A stretch of DNA of 25,406 nucleotides from a virus: IMG/VR virus record IMGVR_UViG_3300034523_000038, positions 1-25,406 of that record, one strand, 5' to 3'. Under the pieces are notes generated by a model that saw only the letters and a program-made list of their open reading frames with translations, was not told where the DNA came from and did not search any database. Shown here piece after piece: positions 4,954 through 25,162 of the stretch; position 1 is the stretch's first letter, and every line of letters begins with the position of its first letter. The position numbers were made by a program, and so were the translations under genes.

Positions 4954-6419
4954 TGTACGTACCCCGCCGCCCGCGCTTTAAGCCAGGACTGCTTGAAAGC
5001 CTCCTGATCACGCTTAGGCAAGCTGTCGAGCATCTTGTAGCGCCCTGCCTGGTCCATGTCCTGGGCCACGAACACGCGAGGGTCAATGTCACGACTCCAT
5101 TGGGTAGAGAACTTGTTGTATTGCTCCGGCGGCAACCCGCTGTTCTGCCATGCCTGGTTTTTGGCCAGGATGGCGCGTTGTCCTGCGATCAACACGTCGA
5201 TCAGTTGCTGGTTGCCCAACTTAGACAGCTGGGTGCCAGGGTTGGCCGCGGCCGCCGATGCCAGTTTGGAGTCAGTGCCCTCGCCCAAGCCGGCCAATGT
5301 CGCCTGAGTCGCCTGGGTTGCGTACTTCTTGAATTCCTCGGCGCTGGCGATCTTCTGGGGGTCGATGCCAATTTTCGCGGCGATATCCGGATTGATACCG
5401 GTCACGAATGCCGCGGCGGTGTTGCGCCAGTCGGTGCCCGGGCCCGTGTTGATGTCGGACAGCTTCTCGCGCATGTTCTGGAACTGGTAGATCGACTGCG
5501 GCGCAGAATCGGCCTGCGCCTGCAATGACAGCGATGCCTCTGCCGCCCCCTTGCCGATGGTTTGCGCGGCCTCTTGGGCGCCCAGTGCGGGAGCGGCCTG
5601 CAAGCCTGGAGCCTGGGTAATCGGCCGCAACCGCCCTGTGCCAAGGCTTCCAGCCTGACCTTGCTGTGGGAGCGAACCACCACCGCCACCACCGTTGGCC
5701 AGATCGGCAAACTGCTGCCGCGTGACATTGCGCATGGTCCCGGTGGCTGGATCGAACATCTGCGTCGGTTGCGCGGCGGCTTCGGGTGACATCTGATTGC
5801 TGTATACCGTGTTCTGCCCAGTCGGCGCGCCAGTGAGCGGGTCAAACGCAGAAACAATCTGCTGGGCGCCGGTATTGATGGTCTGCTGTTGCGGCATCAG
5901 TGTCTTGAGGCGGTCGGCGTCGGTACTGAACCCTACGTACTTCTGTTTTGCCCAGTTCATGAGCTGTGACGGATCGCTGGGCATGTCGGCGGTGAAGTTC
6001 ACCGCCTCCTCTGGAGTGAATAGGCCCTGCCTGATACCGGTGCTGGCCAGCTGCATGACCGCCTGCGGAGTGATATTGCCGGATGCCAGCAGACCACCGA
6101 AACCGCCCGACAGAAGATCGGTACGCTTTTGGGCCATTTCCAGCTTGCCCTTGTCGTAGTTCAGGGCAGAATTGCGCGCCTCATTCACCTGGGCCTGGAT
6201 CTGCGGCAGGTTGTAGGCCGCCGGACCCTGCGACAGCGCCGCTGTAAGCTTTCCATAGTCGATGGTGCCGTCCGGGCCGGTCGCGTCTTTATATGCCTGA
6301 GATGCTGCTAGATTGGCCTGCTGCTGCTGCATAACGCCCTTGAGTTGGGTGGCCATACCCAAGGTTTGCAACAATCCTTGTGGCTGCGCACCTAGCGCGA
6401 TGGATGGATCAATAGCCAT
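4950..6419 (-). CDS. DNA-ejection / internal virion protein (P22 gp20 position)
   Basis: A 489-aa protein in the second of three consecutive ejection-gene positions, as in P22 7-20-16. The N-terminus (residues 1-60) is Gln/Ala-rich and helical (LQTLGMATQLKGVMQQQQ), typical of podovirus ejection proteins. A Gly run lies near residue 245, and the C-terminal region from ~300 is helical and charged. There is no enzymatic motif. It should be packed in the capsid and leave with the DNA to build the trans-envelope conduit. The start is ATG 6419 and the gene overlaps its downstream neighbour by GTGA. The role is assigned from synteny and composition, so the exact P22 counterpart is inferred. Confidence 0.7.
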   Translation of the reverse strand: MAIDPSIALGAQPQGLLQTLGMATQLKGVMQQQQANLAASQAYKDATGPDGTIDYGKLTAALSQGPAAYNLPQIQAQVNEARNSALNYDKGKLEMAQKRTDLLSGGFGGLLASGNITPQAVMQLASTGIRQGLFTPEEAVNFTADMPSDPSQLMNWAKQKYVGFSTDADRLKTLMPQQQTINTGAQQIVSAFDPLTGAPTGQNTVYSNQMSPEAAAQPTQMFDPATGTMRNVTRQQFADLANGGGGGGSLPQQGQAGSLGTGRLRPITQAPGLQAAPALGAQEAAQTIGKGAAEASLSLQAQADSAPQSIYQFQNMREKLSDINTGPGTDWRNTAAAFVTGINPDIAAKIGIDPQKIASAEEFKKYATQATQATLAGLGEGTDSKLASAAAANPGTQLSKLGNQQLIDVLIAGQRAILAKNQAWQNSGLPPEQYNKFSTQWSRDIDPRVFVAQDMDQAGRYKMLDSLPKRDQEAFKQSWLKARAAGYVQ

Positions 6420-7175: not shown

Positions 7176-7631
7176 TCAGTCCTCCAGCCATTTTGTGTAG
7201 GTGACTTCGCAGCGCTCGTACCCCAAGCGCTCGAACAGCCATGACGCATCCATGTGGCACTTGGAGCCGACAAACATGCGGTTCACCCTGCGTCGGCGCA
7301 GCTCCTTCTCCACGAACTCAAACAGGATCTTGCCCCCGGCCTGGCCGCGTTCGTCCGGCTTGACGTAGAAAATGTCCATGATGCAGGTCAGGCAGGTTTC
7401 GTAATGCAGGCCTGGGGCGATGAAGCCAATGAAGTACCCGGCCAACCGGCCTGAGTCGCGCAGGGTCACCAGCAGAAGTTCGCCGGCCGTCTCCCTGGCC
7501 AAGTAGATATCCCACTGAGGTGCCAGCGGAACCTTGTCCTGGTTCAGGGCCAATTCTGCGTAATGCAGCGGAATGACCTTTTTGAGTTCTTCGATATTTG
7601 CGCTGAACGGCTCAACGTGTGCAGTGATCAT
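7176..7631 (-). CDS. GNAT-family N-acetyltransferase
   Basis: 151 aa with GNAT features in order: beta-rich N-terminal half, motif A at about 84-112 (IMDIFYVKPDERGQAGG, where R95-G-Q-A-G-G is the acetyl-CoA pyrophosphate loop, then a helix) and motif B at 132-140 (LFERLGYER). It should transfer an acetyl group from acetyl-CoA to an amine; the substrate cannot be read from sequence. Its ATG overlaps the stop of the oxygenase gene (ATGA), so the two are translationally coupled, and it ends 4 nt before the gp7-like gene. Expression with the virion genes makes a virion protein or a host surface or tail-assembly protein plausible substrates, but this is inference. Confidence 0.8.
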   Translation of the reverse strand: MITAHVEPFSANIEELKKVIPLHYAELALNQDKVPLAPQWDIYLARETAGELLLVTLRDSGRLAGYFIGFIAPGLHYETCLTCIMDIFYVKPDERGQAGGKILFEFVEKELRRRRVNRMFVGSKCHMDASWLFERLGYERCEVTYTKWLED

Positions 7632-8200
7632 GGGCGGCTACTCTTGATGTCCACCACCAGGTGGATGCGGTCGTGGCCGCTGTTGTTGATGACTTCATGT
7701 TCAAGCGCATTGTTGAACCACCAGATTTCGCCGGGCAGCATGGTTACGTGCTCATCCTCACAGCGAAAATCGACGCCTGGGCCAGCCTGCAACACGATGT
7801 GATGGCGCTCCCAGTATTCCGCGTGTGCCGGAGTGTCTGCGTGCGGGAATATGCAGCCGCCGACCTTCACGCGATTGATGACACAGCGCCCAAGGCGCGT
7901 TCCGCCCACATAGCTCATCAGGTTCATGATCAGTGGGCGGGCCTCTGGCAGTGATGCATAAGCCGGGTAGTCAATGCATTCGTGCTGGTCGTACTTGCTC
8001 AGGTGGTCGGCTACTTCGGCCTCCGTTTCCTTTACCGACTTGACCGGGAAGCGCAGAAGGATGGAATCAGTTTCACCGAATGGACCCTGCGGGTAGTCCC
8101 GCATATAGGTGTCGGCGTGCCATAGGCCTTGGCTGCGATACAGGGCGTGCACCAAAGGCATTACGTCAACGCCCTGGGCGATCTTCAAGAAATTGCGCAT
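7628..8200 (-). CDS. aspartyl/asparaginyl beta-hydroxylase-like Fe(II)/2-oxoglutarate oxygenase
   Basis: 190 aa from ATG 8200. The cupin core resembles the Asp/Asn beta-hydroxylase family (AspH-like): H120 and D122 in FPHADTPAH, the strand pair RHHIVLQ and VTMLPGEIWWFNN, H168 in LEHEVINN, and R178 in DRIHLVVD as the likely 2-oxoglutarate ligand. The family hydroxylates Asp or Asn side chains of proteins using O2 and 2-oxoglutarate. It lies between head/tail-completion and ejection genes and is coupled by ATGA to the GNAT gene. An upstream ATG at 8260 was not used because it would overlap the preceding gene and add an atypical Arg-rich stretch; the ribosome-binding site for 8200 is weak. Confidence 0.78.
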   Translation of the reverse strand: MRNFLKIAQGVDVMPLVHALYRSQGLWHADTYMRDYPQGPFGETDSILLRFPVKSVKETEAEVADHLSKYDQHECIDYPAYASLPEARPLIMNLMSYVGGTRLGRCVINRVKVGGCIFPHADTPAHAEYWERHHIVLQAGPGVDFRCEDEHVTMLPGEIWWFNNALEHEVINNSGHDRIHLVVDIKSSRP

Positions 8201-12012: not shown

Positions 12013-13233
12013 TTACAGAACGTCGGCGATGCCGATGCCCCACTCAGGACGCGGAGTTGCGTAGCCGTAGAGGATGTCCAGGCGGCTGATGAACACGTCA
12101 TTGGTGATGTCGAAGCCACGCAAGAAGCGCATCGACACGCCGTCATAGGTCTCGCGGTGCGCCATATCCATGTTGCGCGGCAACGGCAGGTCAGCAGATG
12201 CCATGGTGATCGCCATCGGGTCCATCGCAAAGTTCTTGCGGAAGGTCACGCCGGCACCGCCCACCAGGGTGATCAGCGCGCCGTTGGCCGGCGATGCGGT
12301 AACAGTGCCGTAGGCGACGTTGCCAGCAGCAATTGCCGGGTAGATTGGGATGGTAGTGGCGCCTGCACCAACGTTGGCGGTGACCACGAACTGGCGCAGC
12401 TCGCCGGTGGATTGCTTAGTTACCGGGTTGGTGCCGAACACGCCCGCGATGGTGATCACGTCGCCCTTGGCGAATGTGCCAGTGATTGCTGTCACCGTCA
12501 GAGCGCTACCAGTTTGGTTGGCACCGTTTACAGCGCCCGCCGAGTAGGTGCCGTTGGTGTGTTTGATGACGGTCTGATCCATACCCCAGTCAAAGCCCAG
12601 GGTATCAATCCCCATTTCACCGCTCTTGTACTGATCGCCCACCTTCTGGGTGTTGTTGAACAGCCCTTTCAGGCTGTCAACAGTGCGGGCCTGGGTGCGA
12701 GGGTCAAGAATGGTCTTGCGGCGCCCACGGGCGTTCATGCGCGGCGTTGCCGTCATGTCCAGACGTGCGCCCGCATCCAGCCAGGTGCTGGAGGTCGGCG
12801 TAACGATGGTGCCGGTACCGTCCGTGGCCATGCCCTGGAATGTCAGGTTAGAGAAGCTATCAACCGACTGCATCACATCTACAGCGACACCGCCGGCCAG
12901 AGCATTCACCGCCGGCATGATGAAGCGTTCACTGAAATCATCGATCGACAGCGCCAGTTCGGCAGAGTTGAAGCCCATATCGACACCCTTTTGGGTGGCG
13001 ACAGTCAGCGGGACCTGCCGTTCGTTGGTGTCCTGCGGAACAGCGACACGGCCAGAGCGCACAATGTAGTCATTCGGTAGACGGATGCGCAGGGTGTCAC
13101 CGATCTTGCCGCCGGTTTTGGCGAAGCTGTCGTCGTATTGGGTATCGATGTTGCGCAGGAACAGGTTGCTGTTCTTGAAGAGGCGCAAAGCCTCGCGGGT
13201 GATCATTTGGGGGGTTAACAGGGAGTTAGCCAT
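12013..13233 (-). CDS. major capsid (coat) protein, P22 gp5-like
   Basis: 406 aa. The N-terminal part (ANSLLTPQMITREALRLFKN, IGDTLRIRLPNDYIV, DMGFNSAELALSIDDFSERFI) matches the P22-type coat family, an HK97 fold with an extra inserted domain. The inserted-domain region corresponds to the Thr/Gly-rich middle (~215-320: SALTVTAITGTFAKGDVITIAGV). It sits directly after the scaffold gene, as in P22. The start is ATG with AAGGAAA upstream, a strong ribosome-binding site fitting a protein needed in hundreds of copies. No proteolytic maturation protease gene is present, as expected for P22-type heads. Confidence 0.93.
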   Translation of the reverse strand: MANSLLTPQMITREALRLFKNSNLFLRNIDTQYDDSFAKTGGKIGDTLRIRLPNDYIVRSGRVAVPQDTNERQVPLTVATQKGVDMGFNSAELALSIDDFSERFIMPAVNALAGGVAVDVMQSVDSFSNLTFQGMATDGTGTIVTPTSSTWLDAGARLDMTATPRMNARGRRKTILDPRTQARTVDSLKGLFNNTQKVGDQYKSGEMGIDTLGFDWGMDQTVIKHTNGTYSAGAVNGANQTGSALTVTAITGTFAKGDVITIAGVFGTNPVTKQSTGELRQFVVTANVGAGATTIPIYPAIAAGNVAYGTVTASPANGALITLVGGAGVTFRKNFAMDPMAITMASADLPLPRNMDMAHRETYDGVSMRFLRGFDITNDVFISRLDILYGYATPRPEWGIGIADVL

Positions 13234-13245
13234 GGTGCGTTTCCT

Positions 13246-14001
13246 TTAACGAGATTTTGAGTTCTTTTCTCGCCATTTCGCCCACTCAGCCATGGACATC
13301 TTCGACGGGTCAGTCTCAACCGTCGTAGAGCCATCGATGGGGGTGATTGGCGCAGGTGCTTTCGAAACAGCCTTGGGCACTGGCTGGGCAGCTTTAAGAG
13401 CCAGCCTTTCCAGTTCCCGGCCTTGCTGTACTGGCGGTAGAGAGAGAATGCGGGAGGCTTCTTCTGGGTTCTTACCCAGGGCGTAGATGACCTTGTGAGC
13501 GTCATCCATACCCAGGATCGATTCCACGGAATCCTGGCTAATGCCCAGGGCGTCCAGCGTCACAACAGCGCTCTGGAAGTCTGGGTACTGCTCGGCGCCC
13601 ACCTTCGATACCGTCTGGCCCCGCTCGGCAATAGCCTGGTGCTGGGCCTTTTCCGCAGCGCGTTTCTCGACCAGTTCGTCGATATTCGGTTGCTGTGGAG
13701 TGACATCGGTAGCGTCGGCCTCACCGCCCGCTCTCAACTGCTCTACCAACATGCGGTACCGCTCGGCCGCGCCGGTGCTGGCCTCGGCTTTGCGTTCCGC
13801 TTCGTGTCGCTGCCGCGTCAGTTCACTGATGCGCTTGAGTGCCCACGCGTTGGGGTCCTTCCCTTCCTGCGTGTCGGTGGGCTCTTGCGTGCTATCAGTG
13901 GGTTGCGCGATGTCGCTGGTGGACTGGTCCAGCAATGTGTCGTCCGGCTGCGTCGATTCCGCATCCTGCGAGGTTGTATGCACCTGGGTTTCGTCAGTCA
14001 T
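13246..14001 (-). CDS. scaffolding protein (P22 gp8 position)
   Basis: 251 aa from ATG 14001. Highly charged and Gln/Thr/Asp-rich N-terminus (TDETQVHTTSQDAESTQPDD), a helical middle (LKRISELTRQRHEAERKAEA), and a basic helix at the C-terminus (KMSMAEWAKWREKNSKSR). P22 scaffold also binds coat through a basic helix-turn-helix C-terminus. It directs coat assembly into procapsids and is expected to exit before maturation. It lies between portal and coat. Starts further upstream would overlap portal and add an atypical Pro/Arg-rich tract. Confidence 0.85.
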   Translation of the reverse strand: MTDETQVHTTSQDAESTQPDDTLLDQSTSDIAQPTDSTQEPTDTQEGKDPNAWALKRISELTRQRHEAERKAEASTGAAERYRMLVEQLRAGGEADATDVTPQQPNIDELVEKRAAEKAQHQAIAERGQTVSKVGAEQYPDFQSAVVTLDALGISQDSVESILGMDDAHKVIYALGKNPEEASRILSLPPVQQGRELERLALKAAQPVPKAVSKAPAPITPIDGSTTVETDPSKMSMAEWAKWREKNSKSR

Positions 14002-18104: not shown

Positions 18105-18365
18105 TCAAACGGTCTCGTATTGGGCGTAGAAGTCCTCGGCATCCCACGCGGTAGCCGCGCCGTCCAGCCACGACACAACCTGGCCTTCTTTCACTGCCAA
18201 GGCGGGAGCGCCGTTGAGAACAAACGTGGATTCTTTGGCGGCGACATCGACCTGATATGCCTGTGAGCGGATCAGGTTGGCCACGTCAGCCGACTGCACG
18301 AGAACGTCGGTCACCTCAATCGCCTGAACGGTTGGGGCTTTCTGTTTGAATGTGTTGGCGGTCAT
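18105..18365 (-). CDS. small hypothetical protein before TerS
   Basis: 86 aa, acidic and probably soluble. It has a beta-strand-like core (TFVLNGAPALAVKEGQVVSWLDG, ~47-69) and an acidic C-terminus (WDAEDFYAQYETV). It overlaps the Rz stop by ATGA and ends 3 nt before TerS, so it is expressed in the lysis-packaging junction. No family was recognised with confidence. Confidence 0.6.
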   Translation of the reverse strand: MTANTFKQKAPTVQAIEVTDVLVQSADVANLIRSQAYQVDVAAKESTFVLNGAPALAVKEGQVVSWLDGAATAWDAEDFYAQYETV

Positions 18366-18838
18366 GGCTTGTTCCTCATGGAGTCGTAGGAGCGCTCACA
18401 GGCGAATCCGGCCCGGCGACTTGCGTCAAGCGCTGTTGCCAGCTCGCCCGCATGGTTGTCAGCTTCTGTGCGCAGCTGGGCGAGCAAATCGGTAAGGTCG
18501 TCGATTGTCTTGCCTCTTGCGGTAAGGCGGGAACGAAGGGCGGCGCGGTCGGCAAGCAACTTGGTTTGCTGCTCGCGCAGGCTGACACCCACAGCAACAA
18601 GCTCAGCAGCGTGAGCGTCATCGCTGATCTTTTGATTGGCTGCATCGGTACGTACCTGTTCAATGGCTTGCTGGTGCTTCTGTTCGGTCTGACGGGCCTT
18701 CTCGCTGTCTTCCCGGGCTTGGGTGGCGATGCTGGCCACGTAGTTCGCGTGGTCGGTCTGCGCGTTGTCCAGGCGATGCGTCTGGATGCCCGCCACGATC
18801 ACCAGCAGCACAATGGCGGCGATCAAGTAGCGGGGCAT
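18362..18838 (-). CDS. Rz: Rz-like inner-membrane spanin (DUF2514-type)
   Basis: 158 aa from ATG 18838. It has one N-terminal membrane anchor (YLIAAIVLLVIVAGIQT, ~4-20) followed by a long charged helical periplasmic domain (~25-145) rich in Gln, Glu, Lys and Arg. This is the topology of i-spanins, which span to the outer-membrane subunit and fuse the two membranes at the end of lysis. Its position behind holin and endolysin and the lipoprotein nested inside it confirm the role. An upstream start at 18973 was rejected since it lies in the preceding gene's 3' part and lacks the signal-anchor context. Confidence 0.82.
   Translation of the reverse strand: MPRYLIAAIVLLVIVAGIQTHRLDNAQTDHANYVASIATQAREDSEKARQTEQKHQQAIEQVRTDAANQKISDDAHAAELVAVGVSLREQQTKLLADRAALRSRLTARGKTIDDLTDLLAQLRTEADNHAGELATALDASRRAGFACERSYDSMRNKP
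18376..18645 (-). CDS. Rz1: Rz1-like outer-membrane spanin lipoprotein nested in Rz
   Basis: 89 aa in another frame, wholly inside Rz. MQPIKRSAMTLTLLSLLLWVSAC is a classical lipoprotein signal with lipobox VSAC; after the Cys come ASSKPS and a Pro-rich stretch (SCLPTAPPFVPALP). Small, Pro-rich lipoproteins nested in Rz are the hallmark of o-spanins. It should be lipidated, sent to the outer membrane and pair with the Rz periplasmic domain. The start is uncertain: ATG at 18645, ATG at 18621 (MTLTLL) or TTG at 18663; none has a strong ribosome-binding site, so translational coupling is likely. Confidence 0.8.
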   Translation of the reverse strand: MQPIKRSAMTLTLLSLLLWVSACASSKPSCLPTAPPFVPALPQEARQSTTLPICSPSCAQKLTTMRASWQQRLTQVAGPDSPVSAPTTP

Positions 18839-21768: not shown

Positions 21769-22480
21769 GTTCGTCTCTCCGAATCTTGAGCATGTCCAGC
21801 AACTGGTACCGGGCCGCTTTGGGGTCTCTTGGGATTTGAAGCTTGTCGACGATGCGCTCCGCTTCCTGGCGGCTGTGCTCCAACTGCACCTGATGACGTG
21901 GCCGCATGCTGTCGTGGCTCAGGCCCTTGGCAATGCGCCCTTCCAGCGGCTGGCCGGTTTGTGCACGGCGCATGACGATGGCGTAGTTGCGTTCGAAGCG
22001 TTGGCGCAGCGCCTTGTCGTTGTTCGAATCGGTGTGCAGGTCGTAGGTGCTGGTGGCTTCGGCTGCGATGCGAACAGCGGGATGGCTGTACGTGCCTGCA
22101 CGGGCTTCGTCCCAGGCTTGGGCTTCCGATGGCAGATCGTTCACACGCTTGCACAGGTCGACAAAGTCGCTTGGCGATGGAGGGAACTTGCACTCCTGGA
22201 CCATGCGGTGCAGGCCACGGTTGATCGCGTCGTCACCGAAGTCCTTGACCACGGTCAGCCACACGCGGCGAGCCATTTGCTCAGCCTTCGCATCGCCGTA
22301 GTGTTTCTCGTACCAAGCCGGGAACGCAGTTTTCAGCGTTGCAAACACGCGGCGTACGGCCTGGCGAGCTTCGGTTTCCATCGGGGTGACGTTCTCAGCT
22401 ACCGGCTCACCAAGTTGGGTCTGTGAGGATGTCGTGAGCGTTACGCGTGCGGCCTTGAGTAACTCGTCTACCGGTTTCAT
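21761..22480 (-). CDS. replication protein P-like (helicase loader)
   Basis: 239 aa. The central segment (ARQAVRRVFATLKTAFPAWYEKHYGDAKAEQMARRVW, ~39-75) and the FPPSPSDFVDLCK block (~99-111) match lambda P-type proteins, which capture the host DnaB helicase and bring it to the origin-bound initiator. It follows the O-like gene directly, as O-P in lambda. The ATG at 22480 overlaps that gene by 74 bp and has GGGGGAT upstream; ATG 22381 (METEARQ) would give a shorter product. Confidence 0.78.
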   Translation of the reverse strand: MKPVDELLKAARVTLTTSSQTQLGEPVAENVTPMETEARQAVRRVFATLKTAFPAWYEKHYGDAKAEQMARRVWLTVVKDFGDDAINRGLHRMVQECKFPPSPSDFVDLCKRVNDLPSEAQAWDEARAGTYSHPAVRIAAEATSTYDLHTDSNNDKALRQRFERNYAIVMRRAQTGQPLEGRIAKGLSHDSMRPRHQVQLEHSRQEAERIVDKLQIPRDPKAARYQLLDMLKIRRDEHA

Positions 22481-23177
22481 TGGGTGATCCCCCGTTGGCT
22501 TGCTGGGTGCGTGCTTGGCGTTTCAGTTGCTGGGCGAGTGCGTGTTCCCACTGGGCCTGGGTTTTCAGGTCATCGGGTCGGCTGATCCAGTACGAGCGGA
22601 ATTCGAGAAGCTGGTCGGCTTCGAAGGTTTGGTTTGCCATGCCATTGCGGAACAGGACGGCGGTGAAGGTTTTGGGGTCTGGCTCCCAAGCGTCGTGCAG
22701 CGAGAATTTCGTCTGCGCGGTATGTGTGTGTAGTTCTTTATCTGTATCTGTATCTGTATCTGTATCTCTTATCGTTGAGTTTTCGTTCAACGGAATTTCA
22801 ACGGGCGTTGAACGGGCGTTCACACCCTTTGTTTTCCTGCCGTTCGCACGTGCTGCTCGCGCCTCGGCAGAGGCTTTTCCGGCTGCACTTCGCTGATTTT
22901 GGGTGGCGTGCACAGCCTCCAAATCTCGCTCAATTCGGTCGTGAACCCACTCACCGGAACGCTCGTTGAAAAACTCGTTCAACGACCGTTCAACGTCCGT
23001 CCAACGCTCGTTCGATAGCCGTGCAATCCGGGCCAGCCGGGACACGGGGATAGGTTTGCCGGTCTGCCAGTAGTTGAAGATCAGCAACAGATACGCACCG
23101 TGCTCCTCGGTGGTCAGGTGCATGGTGTCGGCCAGGTAGTCGGCGACGTACAGCTGCATGTACGGGAGGGCTGCCAT
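22407..23177 (-). CDS. O-like replication initiator with DUF1376 domain
   Basis: 256 aa. Residues ~1-95 are a DUF1376 domain (MQLYVADYLADTMHLTTEEHGAYLLLIFNYWQTG), a winged-helix-like module common at the N-terminus of phage replication proteins. A Ser/Thr/Asp-rich linker (~120-150) contains a repetitive DTDTDTDTD stretch. The C-terminus (~158-225: SLHDAWEPDPKTFTAVLFRNGM, FRSYWISRPDDLKTQAQWEHALAQQLKR) resembles DnaT-type primosome domains. It is likely the origin-binding initiator, handing DnaB to the P-like protein. Two groups of 11-bp-spaced iterons lie inside this gene. ATG 23177 preceded by GGAGGAAT. Confidence 0.8.
   Translation of the reverse strand: MAALPYMQLYVADYLADTMHLTTEEHGAYLLLIFNYWQTGKPIPVSRLARIARLSNERWTDVERSLNEFFNERSGEWVHDRIERDLEAVHATQNQRSAAGKASAEARAARANGRKTKGVNARSTPVEIPLNENSTIRDTDTDTDTDKELHTHTAQTKFSLHDAWEPDPKTFTAVLFRNGMANQTFEADQLLEFRSYWISRPDDLKTQAQWEHALAQQLKRQARTQQANGGSPNETGRRVTQGRTRNAHDILTDPTW
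22720..23019. other. candidate phage replication origin: iterons and repeat tract inside the O-like gene
   Basis: Two clusters of a 9-bp near-palindrome (CGTTSAACG) occur at exact 11-bp steps. Cluster A has units at 22773, 22784, 22795, 22806 and 22817; cluster B at 22976, 22987, 22998 and 23009, plus a unit at 22964. An 11-bp step is not a codon multiple, so it is not a protein repeat. Beyond cluster A, in gene direction, lies a T/A-rich repeat tract (22720-22772). Lambda ori has the same order: iterons in the O gene, then an easily melted stretch. Confidence 0.65.
22739..22767. repeat. hexanucleotide tandem repeat (TATCTG x4 plus partial)
   Basis: Four perfect TATCTG units (22739-22762) plus TATCT encode the Asp-Thr repeat in the O-like protein linker. 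Slippage by one unit keeps the reading frame, so the linker length can vary. It adjoins the iteron array and may serve as the melting region. Confidence 0.9.
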
Positions 23178-23179
23178 GG

Positions 23180-23488
23180 CTATTCCTCCTGCAACTGGTC
23201 AACGTTCTGGATCAGTTCCATGTACCGCTTGGCCTGATGCAGAAGGGTTTCAATATCCCGCTTGTCGAAGCACTGCATTGCCTTGGGAACCACTTTCAAG
23301 TCGAGAAAAGCCAGGATTTGACAGAACTGCTCAAACTTCTCCGGCTTCATGCGGCTGATCGTTGCTTCGTCGCAACCGACTGCAAGTGCCACGGACGCAT
23401 TGCCGACAGATGCAAGGGCCTGCATGAGAACGGAGTAGTTCTTGCGGGCCCTTACGGTCTGCTCTTGGCTTAATGGGCTCGTCGACAT
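23180..23488 (-). CDS. cII: CII-like transcriptional activator
   Basis: 102 aa. Matches lambda CII-type proteins: a short N-terminal helix (ARKNYSVLMQALASVG), a helix-turn-helix ASVALAVGCDEATISRMKP (~32-50), then EKFEQFCQILAFLDLKVVP (~51-70) and a helical C-terminal tail. CII activates repressor and integrase promoters when infection favours lysogeny. It begins only 2 nt after the cro stop, with GGTGG upstream. No lambda-type TTGC-N6-TTGC PRE box in the right orientation was found near its start. Confidence 0.82.
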   Translation of the reverse strand: MSTSPLSQEQTVRARKNYSVLMQALASVGNASVALAVGCDEATISRMKPEKFEQFCQILAFLDLKVVPKAMQCFDKRDIETLLHQAKRYMELIQNVDQLQEE

Positions 23489-23490
23489 GG

Positions 23491-23679
23491 CTAAGCCACC
23501 GACTGAGACCGGCTTTCTTGGCCGGCCTTCAGTGCTCCATCAGTGAGCTTTTCCAGCTGGTACTGGCGCAACTCGGGGACTTCATCCCCCCACTGTCGCA
23601 CGGCCTCATAAGTAATTTTGAGAGCCCGTGCGAGCTTGGGGATGGAGCCGTAATAATCAATCGCTGTTTGGCGTTTCAT
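23491..23679 (-). CDS. cro: Cro-like repressor
   Basis: 62 aa from ATG 23679, with GGAGGTG 5 nt upstream. MKRQTAIDYYGSIPKLARALKITYEAVRQWGDEVPE is a helix-turn-helix of the P22 Cro type: helix 2 SIPKLARAL and recognition helix TYEAVRQWG. The recognition helix closely matches that of the CI protein here (SYEAVRQWF), as expected for two repressors sharing operators. It is the first gene of the rightward early transcript and should shut off both early promoters. The longer ORF to 23715 reads through the promoter and was rejected. Confidence 0.88.
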   Translation of the reverse strand: MKRQTAIDYYGSIPKLARALKITYEAVRQWGDEVPELRQYQLEKLTDGALKAGQESRSQSVA

Positions 23680-23705
23680 GGGCACCTCCAATGCTCTTAC
23701 GCCAA

Positions 23706-23734
23706 ATTCAAGCATGCTTGTATTTAATAAGCAA
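23706..23734 (-). promoter_or_regulatory. early promoter PR
   Basis: Proposed on the minus strand: -35 TTGCTT (23734-23729), 17-bp spacer, -10 TTGAAT (23711-23706), start near 23699. The spacer holds most of operator 23709-23720. The PL promoter on the other side of cI has the same design (TTGCAT, 17 bp with the operator, TTTTAT), which supports the choice. Individual boxes are weak. Confidence 0.5.
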
Positions 23735-23756
23735 GCATGCTTGACAAGCGAACTTG
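23709..23756. promoter_or_regulatory. right operator OR: three CAAG-N4-CTTG dyads
   Basis: Three 12-bp dyads lie between cro and cI: CAAGCATGCTTG at 23709-23720, the identical site at 23732-23743, and CAAGCGAACTTG at 23745-23756. Centre distances are 23 and 13 bp. They are the expected binding sites for CI and Cro. The cI-proximal site is the variant one, as OR3 is in lambda. A possible PRM -10 box (TAGATT, 23757-23762) would start cI mRNA at or near its ATG; a leaderless message fits the absence of a ribosome-binding site. Confidence 0.88.
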
Positions 23757-23768
23757 TAGATTTGGCGA

Positions 23769-24485
23769 ATGAACATCACTGATCGAATGACGAAACTTGT
23801 ACTGGCACGGAAGCCTGAAACCGGCGTGCGTGGCGTAAAACGGCTGATCGCGACAACATGCGATGTTAGCTACGAAGCTGTGCGCCAATGGTTCGCCGGG
23901 GACACTGGAAATATCAAAAACCACAACCTGCTGACCCTGGCCCGTGGACTGGATACGACGGTCGACTGGCTATTGGATGGTGTCGGCGATCCACCGAGGC
24001 GGCGTGCCATGGACAACGTAGTGATAGGCGACTTCTCCCGACAGCAGCGGGATGACGAAATCGAAATTCCTCAGTACGACGTGGTGGCCTCGATGGGCCC
24101 GGGCCAGGTTCTGCCAAAGGAATACATCGAGACGGTCCGAAACATCACTGTTCGCACTGAGTACCTGCGCGAACAGGGCATCACCTACACCCATGGCGAC
24201 AATCTGTCGGTGATCACCGGATTCGGCGAAAGCATGGGTGCTACCTTTTCCAGCGGTGACCCACTGATCGTTGATCAGGGCGTTAACGAGGTAGTGGTTG
24301 ATGGTGTCTACGTCTTCACGCTGGACGGGATGCTGTACATCAAGCGCCTGCAACGTCTGCCGAAGATGCTGCGCATGATTTCGGACAACGAGACTTTCCC
24401 TCCCTACGATATAAAGGGTGCCGAACTGACCGACCTGATCATTCATGCCCGCGTCCTGCTGGCCTGGAACGCGAGGAAGTTATGA
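23769..24485 (+). CDS. cI: CI-type prophage repressor with S24 (LexA-like) domain
   Basis: 238 aa. An N-terminal helix-turn-helix domain (~1-75; SYEAVRQWFAGDTGNI as recognition region, then LARGLDTTVDWLLDG), a linker, and a C-terminal S24 peptidase domain (~100-235) with catalytic S155 in GESMGATFSSGD and K192 in YIKRLQR. It keeps the lytic promoters off by binding the CAAG-N4-CTTG operators and normally self-cleaves with RecA. The place where LexA and lambda CI have Ala-Gly reads Met109-Gly110 (ASMG), so cleavage needs checking. Divergent from cro; no ribosome-binding site before the ATG. The next gene overlaps by ATGA. Confidence 0.92.
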   Translation: MNITDRMTKLVLARKPETGVRGVKRLIATTCDVSYEAVRQWFAGDTGNIKNHNLLTLARGLDTTVDWLLDGVGDPPRRRAMDNVVIGDFSRQQRDDEIEIPQYDVVASMGPGQVLPKEYIETVRNITVRTEYLREQGITYTHGDNLSVITGFGESMGATFSSGDPLIVDQGVNEVVVDGVYVFTLDGMLYIKRLQRLPKMLRMISDNETFPPYDIKGAELTDLIIHARVLLAWNARKL

Positions 24486-24787
24486 GATACGGATATGTGA
24501 CGTTTTTACCGATCGTTTTTGCGCTATCAGGATGTGCTACCCAGCTCTCCCCCGCCGGCGCGCAGGTCAAGGTGGTGACAGAGGCTCAGCGTGAGAAATG
24601 CACCCTATTAACCATAATTTCCACCGAGCAATCACTTGGACCGGATAAGCCTGGCAATGCACTGCGCAAAGCCTTGAACGAAGTGGCCGCACTTGGCGGT
24701 AATGGGTTCAGACTGATCAGCAGCAATGTTGGTTTTGACGGGGCATCGGTTACCGGCGAAGCGCTGAAGTGCGGACCTACAATTTAA
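24482..24787 (+). CDS. DUF4156-like lipoprotein co-expressed with CI
   Basis: 101 aa. The signal peptide MRYGYVTFLPIVFALSGC ends in a lipobox (LSGC), so the mature protein starts at Cys18 and is lipid-anchored. The body has the DUF4156 look: a Cys after VVTEAQREKC, a small domain with LNEVAALGGNGFRLISSN, and a final GEALKCG. Overlap by ATGA with cI means it is made in the lysogen from the repressor transcript. This is the lambda rexAB position, so it may be a lysogenic-conversion or superinfection-exclusion protein; no direct evidence shows that. Confidence 0.78.
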   Translation: MRYGYVTFLPIVFALSGCATQLSPAGAQVKVVTEAQREKCTLLTIISTEQSLGPDKPGNALRKALNEVAALGGNGFRLISSNVGFDGASVTGEALKCGPTI

Positions 24788-24800
24788 GGAGATTGATCAA

Positions 24801-25040
24801 GTGGAATGGTATTTTGTGGCGTCCTGGGCCTGCTTTCTCATGCTTTTCGCCAGAATTAAATCCCTCCGCAATGAGTGCGAGTCCTTGAAGGTCGGTCTTT
24901 ACCATACCGAACGGAAGCTTGATCAGCTTTTGGAGAGCTTTGATTTTGCTATTTGCGAACTACGCGACTCCACGAAGGACACTAACGATTTCCTAAAAGG
25001 GTCCGGCATGTACGACCCCCGGTACCGAAGCGACCCGTAG
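24801..25040 (+). CDS. small membrane-anchored coiled-coil protein
   Basis: 79 aa starting with GTG at 24801, with AAGGAG 9 nt upstream. Residues 3-17 (WYFVASWACFLMLFA) form one short membrane segment; residues ~19-62 are a charged helix with heptad-like Leu spacing (LRNECESLKVGLYHTERKLDQLLESF). It follows the lipoprotein by 13 nt and is followed by a terminator, completing a cI-lipoprotein-membrane-protein operon. No family recognised. It may work with the lipoprotein at the envelope, or be an independent lysogeny gene. Confidence 0.65.
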   Translation: MEWYFVASWACFLMLFARIKSLRNECESLKVGLYHTERKLDQLLESFDFAICELRDSTKDTNDFLKGSGMYDPRYRSDP

Positions 25041-25063
25041 GTCATCCAAACATAATTTTCAAT

Positions 25064-25088
25064 GCCCGCCGCCGAGCGGGCTTTTTTT
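25064..25088 (+). terminator. terminator of the cI operon
   Basis: A 6-bp stem GCCCGC/GCGGGC (25064-25069 with 25076-25081), 6-nt loop, then seven T's (25082-25088). It ends repressor-operon transcription just before the PL region. Confidence 0.92.
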
Positions 25089-25107: not shown

Positions 25108-25162
25108 CAAGTGAACTTGCATATCAGATACAAGCATGCTTTTATAAGTGCAAGTCCGCTTG
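25108..25162. promoter_or_regulatory. left-type operator OL: three CAAG-N4-CTTG dyads
   Basis: Sites CAAGTGAACTTG (25108-25119), CAAGCATGCTTT (25131-25142, one mismatch to the OR consensus) and CAAGTCCGCTTG (25151-25162) repeat the operator motif found between cro and cI. Centre distances are 23 and 20 bp. The 23-bp step equals that of two OR sites. CI and Cro should bind here too, and CI could loop OR to OL over ~1.4 kb. Confidence 0.87.
25117..25145 (+). promoter_or_regulatory. early promoter PL
   Basis: Plus strand: -35 TTGCAT (25117-25122), 17-bp spacer containing the middle operator, -10 TTTTAT (25140-25145; TTTATA with 18 bp is equivalent), start near 25152. It mirrors PR and points away from cI into the recombination/integration arm outside the window. 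Confidence 0.5.

Follow-up and report, generated by a model that had tools for sequence, protein, structure and literature searches.

Which genes does a prophage express together with its repressor, and what might they do for the lysogen? The question is raised by a 25,406-base virus record (the window, by which we mean the whole stretch of DNA analysed) with a P22-type gene set and the lysis genes of a tailed phage; the named phages closest to it have Pseudomonas as their host. At its right end lies a lambda-like immunity region in which two further genes follow the repressor gene. A cro gene of the P22_Cro family (23491–23715, minus strand; Pfam 1.9e-23) and a cII-like activator gene (23180–23488, minus strand; phrog_725, 2.4e-30; Pfam Phage_CII, 8.1e-6) read leftward. 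Divergent from cro, cI reads rightward (23769–24485, plus strand) and encodes a 238-aa repressor with HTH and S24 peptidase parts (Pfam Peptidase_S24, 1.2e-14; phrog_4 transcriptional repressor, 5.4e-40). Next come a gene for a predicted lipoprotein of 101 aa (P0001; 24482–24787, plus strand), a gene for a small protein of 79 aa (P0002; 24801–25040, plus strand) and an intrinsic terminator (GCCCGCCGCCGAGCGGGC-T7, 25064–25088, plus strand) that ends the cI operon. An OR-like operator array lies between cro and cI (23709–23756; palindromes at 23709, 23732 and 23745), and an OL-like array is found at the presumed PL (25108–25162; palindromes at 25108, 25131 and 25151). Each holds three CAAGCNNGCTTG-like palindromes, such that the triple-operator OL mirrors OR; in lambda, OR and OL have three operators each. 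Over the window as a whole, the motif occurs about as often as chance predicts (22 sites, 19.75 expected), and the case for these operators therefore lies in their paired clusters flanking the cI operon.

The original prediction placed the two genes in the position of lambda rexAB, and the layout it described was confirmed throughout. The TGA that closes cI (...AAGTTATGA) overlaps the ATG of the lipoprotein gene as ATGA, a 13-nt gap separates the lipoprotein gene from the small gene, and the terminator and OL follow. Both genes lie on the strand of cI, directly downstream of it and before OL, and both operator arrays are present. The translational overlap and the lack of any terminator before 25064 make it probable that cI, the lipoprotein gene and the small gene are co-transcribed, as had been proposed. 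The one sigma-70-like site within the lipoprotein gene (24591) does not exceed chance expectation, and no RNA families were found in the window. Elsewhere in the window, an aspartyl/asparaginyl beta-hydroxylase-type protein (7628–8197, minus strand; Pfam 2e-14) and a GNAT acetyltransferase (7176–7631, minus strand) are encoded amid virion genes. The gene at 22407–23177 contains a TCTGTA hexanucleotide array of 5.5 repeats (22735–22767), which encodes a DTDTDTDT run and is possibly a length-variable, frame-neutral tract.

A search with the cI of the window identified 12 viral contigs with repressors 80–98% identical and with the same operators and terminator. All 12 present the order cI, slot, terminator, OL operators, and in 11 of them all three OR palindromes keep their distances from cI (in L043, two of the three do). 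Identity to the window is 74–88% over the last 200 bp of cI and 76–95% over the 130 bp that begin with the terminator, as against 16–53% over the slot itself, where the longer versions align globally no better than unrelated DNA would. Grouping translations by eye, we distinguished a 104-aa transmembrane (TM) protein (L032, L033 and L035), a 150-aa protein whose N-terminus bears a TM segment (L036 and L043; phage UFJF_PfDIW6 has it too, as gp39), a protein of about 120 aa with a signal peptide (L034, L037 and L040), a 62-aa TM protein (L041 and L042) and an empty slot (L038 and L039); the contigs compared are incomplete viral sequences from uneven sampling. The signal-peptide cargo presents a weak HdeA-type periplasmic likeness (E 0.0046 for the L034 copy, under the cut-off). 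The original prediction looked for the same lipoprotein and small gene next to cI in related prophages, and this part of it fails because the pair is absent there: 0 of the 12 relatives carry it, their slots holding other cargo or none. Neither the pair nor the further slot cargo that we ran against PADLOC matched any of its models. Taken together, the comparison makes a strong case at the sequence level that 24486–25063 is an exchangeable cassette slot at the 3' end of the lambda-like cI operon of a P22-type Pseudomonas prophage, with the terminator as its right border.

Five cargo-bearing types can be counted when the window is included, and in each of them one or more of the encoded products have a signal peptide or TM segment. 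Outside the slot of UFJF_PfDIW6, a related phage, 6 of 40 short genes have a comparably strong hydrophobic segment. At that base rate, five of five types would be expected with a chance of about 1e-4 if they are independent, given a crude hydrophobicity threshold that the window's P0002 alone would narrowly miss. Envelope-directed cargo throughout is thus unlikely by chance. Since the same-immunity flanks hold varied cargo and all cargo-bearing versions appear envelope-directed, the slot is best described as a cassette site for envelope proteins.

How does this cargo compare with known occupants of such a position? With lambda rexAB it shares the slot between cI and OL/PL, the number of genes and the expected expression from the cI promoter. 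However, rexAB encode a cytoplasmic sensor and a multi-TM protein, whereas the window would encode an outer-membrane (OM) lipoprotein and a one-TM helix. Searches of Pfam, PHROGs and PADLOC at E ≤ 1 gave no match to the RexA and RexB families, and we rejected homology to RexAB, there being no sequence family in common. The interval between cI and N, downstream of the repressor in diverse prophages, is already published as a mosaic hotspot that holds rexAB, bstA and other morons (PMC8585504, PMC7067206). BstA acts by abortive infection and moves to the sites where phages replicate, whereas the window cargo is predicted to be envelope-directed. The 12 loci share with the morons of the Rex slot the exchange of cassettes between otherwise similar immunity regions.

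The coding composition of the lipoprotein gene prefers frame 0 to the five alternatives, although weakly (0.08, where non-coding sequence has its 95th percentile at 0.05); the gene is not a chance ORF, because homologues exist in other phages, with about 46–55% local identity. P0001 has the lipobox L15-S-G-C18 followed by A-T-Q. The LSGC lipobox without Asp at position +2 is found in P0001 and its homologues and predicts lipidation and OM sorting, which agrees with the envelope targeting originally proposed. The DUF4156-like label that came with that proposal holds as a remote match (PF13698; E 1.1e-4, positions 2–90 of 90 in the profile aligned) and not as formal membership, as the 23.0 bits fall below the Pfam cut-off of 28.9 bits. 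By sequence, P0001 is a remote DUF4156 relative. Six of the eight family members match DUF4156 at E ≤ 0.01 (best 4.4e-6), and the scores of L002 (26.4 bits) and L058 (20.2 bits) are also under the 28.9-bit cut-off. At E ≤ 1, Pfam gave P0001 one other match, weak and spurious, and the RcsF family was absent. A tblastn search of P0001 against 50,697 phage records gave no match at E ≤ 0.01 and so no similarity to known Llp/Cor-type members; the lipoprotein was not found in known phages or plasmids, and a sequence search against solved structures gave no match. Two papers mention DUF4156, and by title and abstract neither concerns phages.

Viral relatives of the lipoprotein were detected in seven loci (L001–L005, L008 and L031), and a further one (L006) in a Massilia genome. 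Four of the viral copies lie in the operon of a repressor other than that of the window. L002 and L003 present the order cI, two small genes, lipoprotein, terminator, OL; L004 adds to this order a 208-aa TM gene after the lipoprotein; L031 has a repressor, one small gene, lipoprotein, terminator and OL. Each has operator words common to both flanks and distinct from those of the window, and together they make up two operator systems other than the window's. Global identity to the window is 42–51% for these lipoproteins and 2–24% for their repressors, computed over the shorter sequence so that the low values are merely indicative. In L002 (4436–4970), L003 and L004, the two genes between cI and the lipoprotein are small and apparently related (about 91 and 85 aa), the second ends in PPEPE(I/V)PF, and the copies tested belong to no Pfam, PHROGs or NCBIfam family. 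A further prophage, in a Pseudomonas-type genome (L058:3690–5271), has an S24 repressor, one intervening gene of 167 aa and a more distant DUF4156-like lipoprotein in tandem; the viral contig L064 has this tandem too, with an identical lipoprotein gene, and a search for operator words common to the two flanks found none in either. In another Pseudomonas-type genome (L062), two near-identical DUF4156-like lipoprotein genes (5955–6293 and 13127–13465, minus strand) lie in direct orientation about 7.2 kb apart, and between them are an AbiEii gene and a Zorya set of type II (ZorA2, ZorB2 and ZorE2).

Other homologues lie outside a cI operon: those of L001 and L005/L006 follow virion or packaging-type genes and that of L008 is in an unrelated setting. 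Among the independent lineages besides the window, two of five have the lipoprotein in the slot (P about 0.02, with a 5% chance per gene assumed), which amounts to a modest enrichment after merging related loci. Of the unit first proposed, then, the lipoprotein type recurs in other cI operons and its pairing with the small gene is not conserved; the broader claim on the slot and the lipoprotein is strengthened by these sequence comparisons. A GP(D/N)K(P/S)G(N/S)A motif is common to the phage members as well, and the lipobox, both cysteines of the mature protein (C40 and C97) and this motif are kept across divergent phages. This conservation argues for purifying selection on the lipoprotein and, together with the uniformly envelope-directed cargo of the slot, makes it unlikely that the two genes are passengers in a recombination hotspot, without selected function and tolerated because cI is transcribed, a reading that would suit the empty slots of L038 and L039 and the lack of any relative found for the small gene.

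We then considered the predicted fold. An AlphaFold2 model of P0001, computed with eight sequences, forms an alpha/beta domain starting at residue 24 (mean pLDDT 81). Foldseek and VIA-align group this model with RcsF, YdgH-type and YbjQ-type proteins, and RcsF, the envelope-stress lipoprotein of Enterobacterales, is at the top (Z 9.8 for 2y1b and 9.7 for 2l8y; 72 of 86 residues, 1.9 Å, 18% identity). RcsF chains taken from complexes also match, with Z 9.0 for the IgaA complex and Z 7.7 for the BamA complex. In the model, C40 opens the first strand and C97 stands at the end of the final one; because both positions are conserved, a C40–C97 disulphide likely closes the RcsF-like domain. P0001 thus resembles RcsF as a predicted OM lipoprotein with RcsF as its best structural match, but the linker from the lipidated cysteine to the fold is short: secondary structure begins about six residues after C18, whereas a long linker would be expected for threading through an OMP. 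Given this linker, the 18% identity and the lack of an RcsF family match, we rejected P0001 as an RcsF orthologue. Folds of the RcsF/YdgH/YbjQ type are common and leave the function undecided; the proteins that have them include stress sensors and secreted proteins not known to exclude phages.

The small gene starts with GTG 13 nt past the lipoprotein stop, which its strong ribosome-binding site, AAGGAG, overlaps. The gene call is based on this site, the open frame and the coding composition, in which frame 0 is favoured over the other five (0.156), more clearly than for the lipoprotein. The AlphaFold model of P0002 is a single helix (residues 2–67, pLDDT 96 in most of it). Its N-terminal TM segment is short and borderline, with a best 17-residue Kyte-Doolittle mean of 1.54 against the usual 1.6, and the flanking charges predict an N-out/C-in topology that would leave the helix in the cytoplasm and about four residues outside. 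No relatives were found in phages and viral contigs, nor in 423 Pseudomonas-type genomes in a search that had no positive control, and tblastn against the collected loci gave the window itself as the sole significant match. P0002 is probably a separate accessory with a cytoplasmic helix instead of an obligate partner of the lipoprotein.

These properties bear on two readings in which the proteins would work together. A relay after RcsF and IgaA, in which the lipoprotein senses OM disturbance at adsorption and P0002 passes the signal to a Rex-like abortive response, would account for the RcsF fold, the IgaA-bound chain among the best matches, the adjacency of a lipoprotein gene and a TM-helix gene with the second ribosome-binding site on the first stop, and the TM protein that directly follows the lipoprotein in L004 as well. 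We consider it improbable: with only about four residues predicted outside, P0002 offers the lipoprotein little to contact, the two proteins are not conserved together, and the TM protein of L004 is unrelated in sequence. Still less probable is a second spanin pair like Rz1/Rz, an OM lipoprotein and a one-TM coiled coil acting in lysis. The superficial architecture, a small lipoprotein adjoining a long one-TM helix, is similar, but the canonical pair already follows the endolysin gene on the minus strand, as an Rz-like spanin (18362–18838) with an Rz1-like lipoprotein nested in it (18376–18621; phrog_312, 1.9e-23, and phrog_11621, 3.7e-14, for the pair). Moreover, the topology predicted for P0002 is the reverse of the N-in/C-out of an i-spanin, the lipoprotein is modelled as a folded alpha/beta domain, and the location is a lysogenic operon, not a late one. 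On the P0002 topology and the canonical pair elsewhere in the window, we rejected this identity.

We favour, at a probability of roughly 0.4, a role of the lipoprotein in superinfection exclusion, in which it would be expressed in lysogeny, face the periplasm from the outer membrane and dock on an OM beta-barrel receptor. Transcription from PRM/PRE would cover cI and cargo alike, and the cargo would be produced in the lysogen. The lipoprotein would be sorted to the outer membrane with its RcsF-like domain towards the periplasm and would dock on the periplasmic side of a beta-barrel serving as a phage receptor, blocking receptor binding or DNA entry in the manner of Llp on FhuA and Rtp45 on LptDE. 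The scheme fits because an OM lipoprotein of barrel-binding fold is predicted to be encoded with the repressor, and by analogy it makes the phage exclusion proposed for the two genes plausible. Small phage lipoproteins exclude phages through OM receptors from the periplasm (PMC9586334, PMC12685063): Llp turns the outer loops of FhuA inward (PMC9586334), Rtp45 alters the outer loops of LptD (PMC12685063), and for mEpimmI lipoproteins, phage exclusion was seen in infection assays (PMC11893012). P0001 shares with Llp of T5, Cor, Rtp45 and the mEpimmI Lpp a small size, an expected periplasmic side at the outer membrane and a cysteine pair capable of a disulphide, and the mEpimmI lpp genes lie near virion-type genes as do the L001 and L005/L006 homologues. 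However, the mature domain of P0001 is about 84 aa and predicted to be RcsF-like, whereas Llp has about 61 aa and Rtp45 about 6 kDa, and the window copy differs from all four in lying in a cI operon and in having no sequence match in the phage collection.

A benefit to the host other than defence against phages is nearly as likely as exclusion. On this alternative the genes would be a lysogenic-conversion moron without anti-phage action, and the lipoprotein would modify the envelope to the general advantage of the lysogen, as with lambda Bor, through stress tolerance, vesicles or resistance to host defences or predators. Lipoproteins of the DUF4156/RcsF fold are also chromosomal: among the control genomes, E. 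coli gave a DUF4156 match, and L059 has a copy whose setting is not that of a phage. In addition, the weakly HdeA-like periplasmic cargo of the slot suggests envelope or stress functions. In contrast, the best-studied cargo of the slot in other phages, rexAB and bstA, is anti-phage (PMC8585504), and cassette exchange between constant flanks resembles the diversifying selection expected of exclusion genes, although this is not decisive. The recurrence of such a lipoprotein at the same place in unrelated phages suggests a change to the host envelope, most likely directed against competing phages.

As far as our searches show, three elements are new: a DUF4156-like occupant of the slot with a predicted RcsF fold, its recurrence across operator systems, and cargo that appears entirely envelope-directed in a Pseudomonas immunity type. 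More speculatively, temperate phages of several unrelated immunity types could have repeatedly recruited RcsF-fold lipoproteins as gatekeepers of lysogeny, so that a domain by which bacteria bind and monitor beta-barrels would serve prophages to jam a barrel receptor from the periplasm. If true, although we hold this generalization to be doubtful, these lipoproteins would form an exclusion family distinct from Llp/Cor in a slot with uniformly envelope-directed cargo. A repressor-adjacent gene is among the few that a prophage keeps on, and the cargo of this slot is therefore a readout of what is selected in lysogeny. With five envelope cassettes that are interchangeable in one immunity module, and an empty site besides, a near-isogenic test set is at hand for superinfection exclusion in Pseudomonas, and the lipoprotein connects phage biology with DUF4156, a domain of unknown function. 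If exclusion is confirmed, the short list of phage entry blockers would gain a lipoprotein fold whose beta-barrel partners are known.
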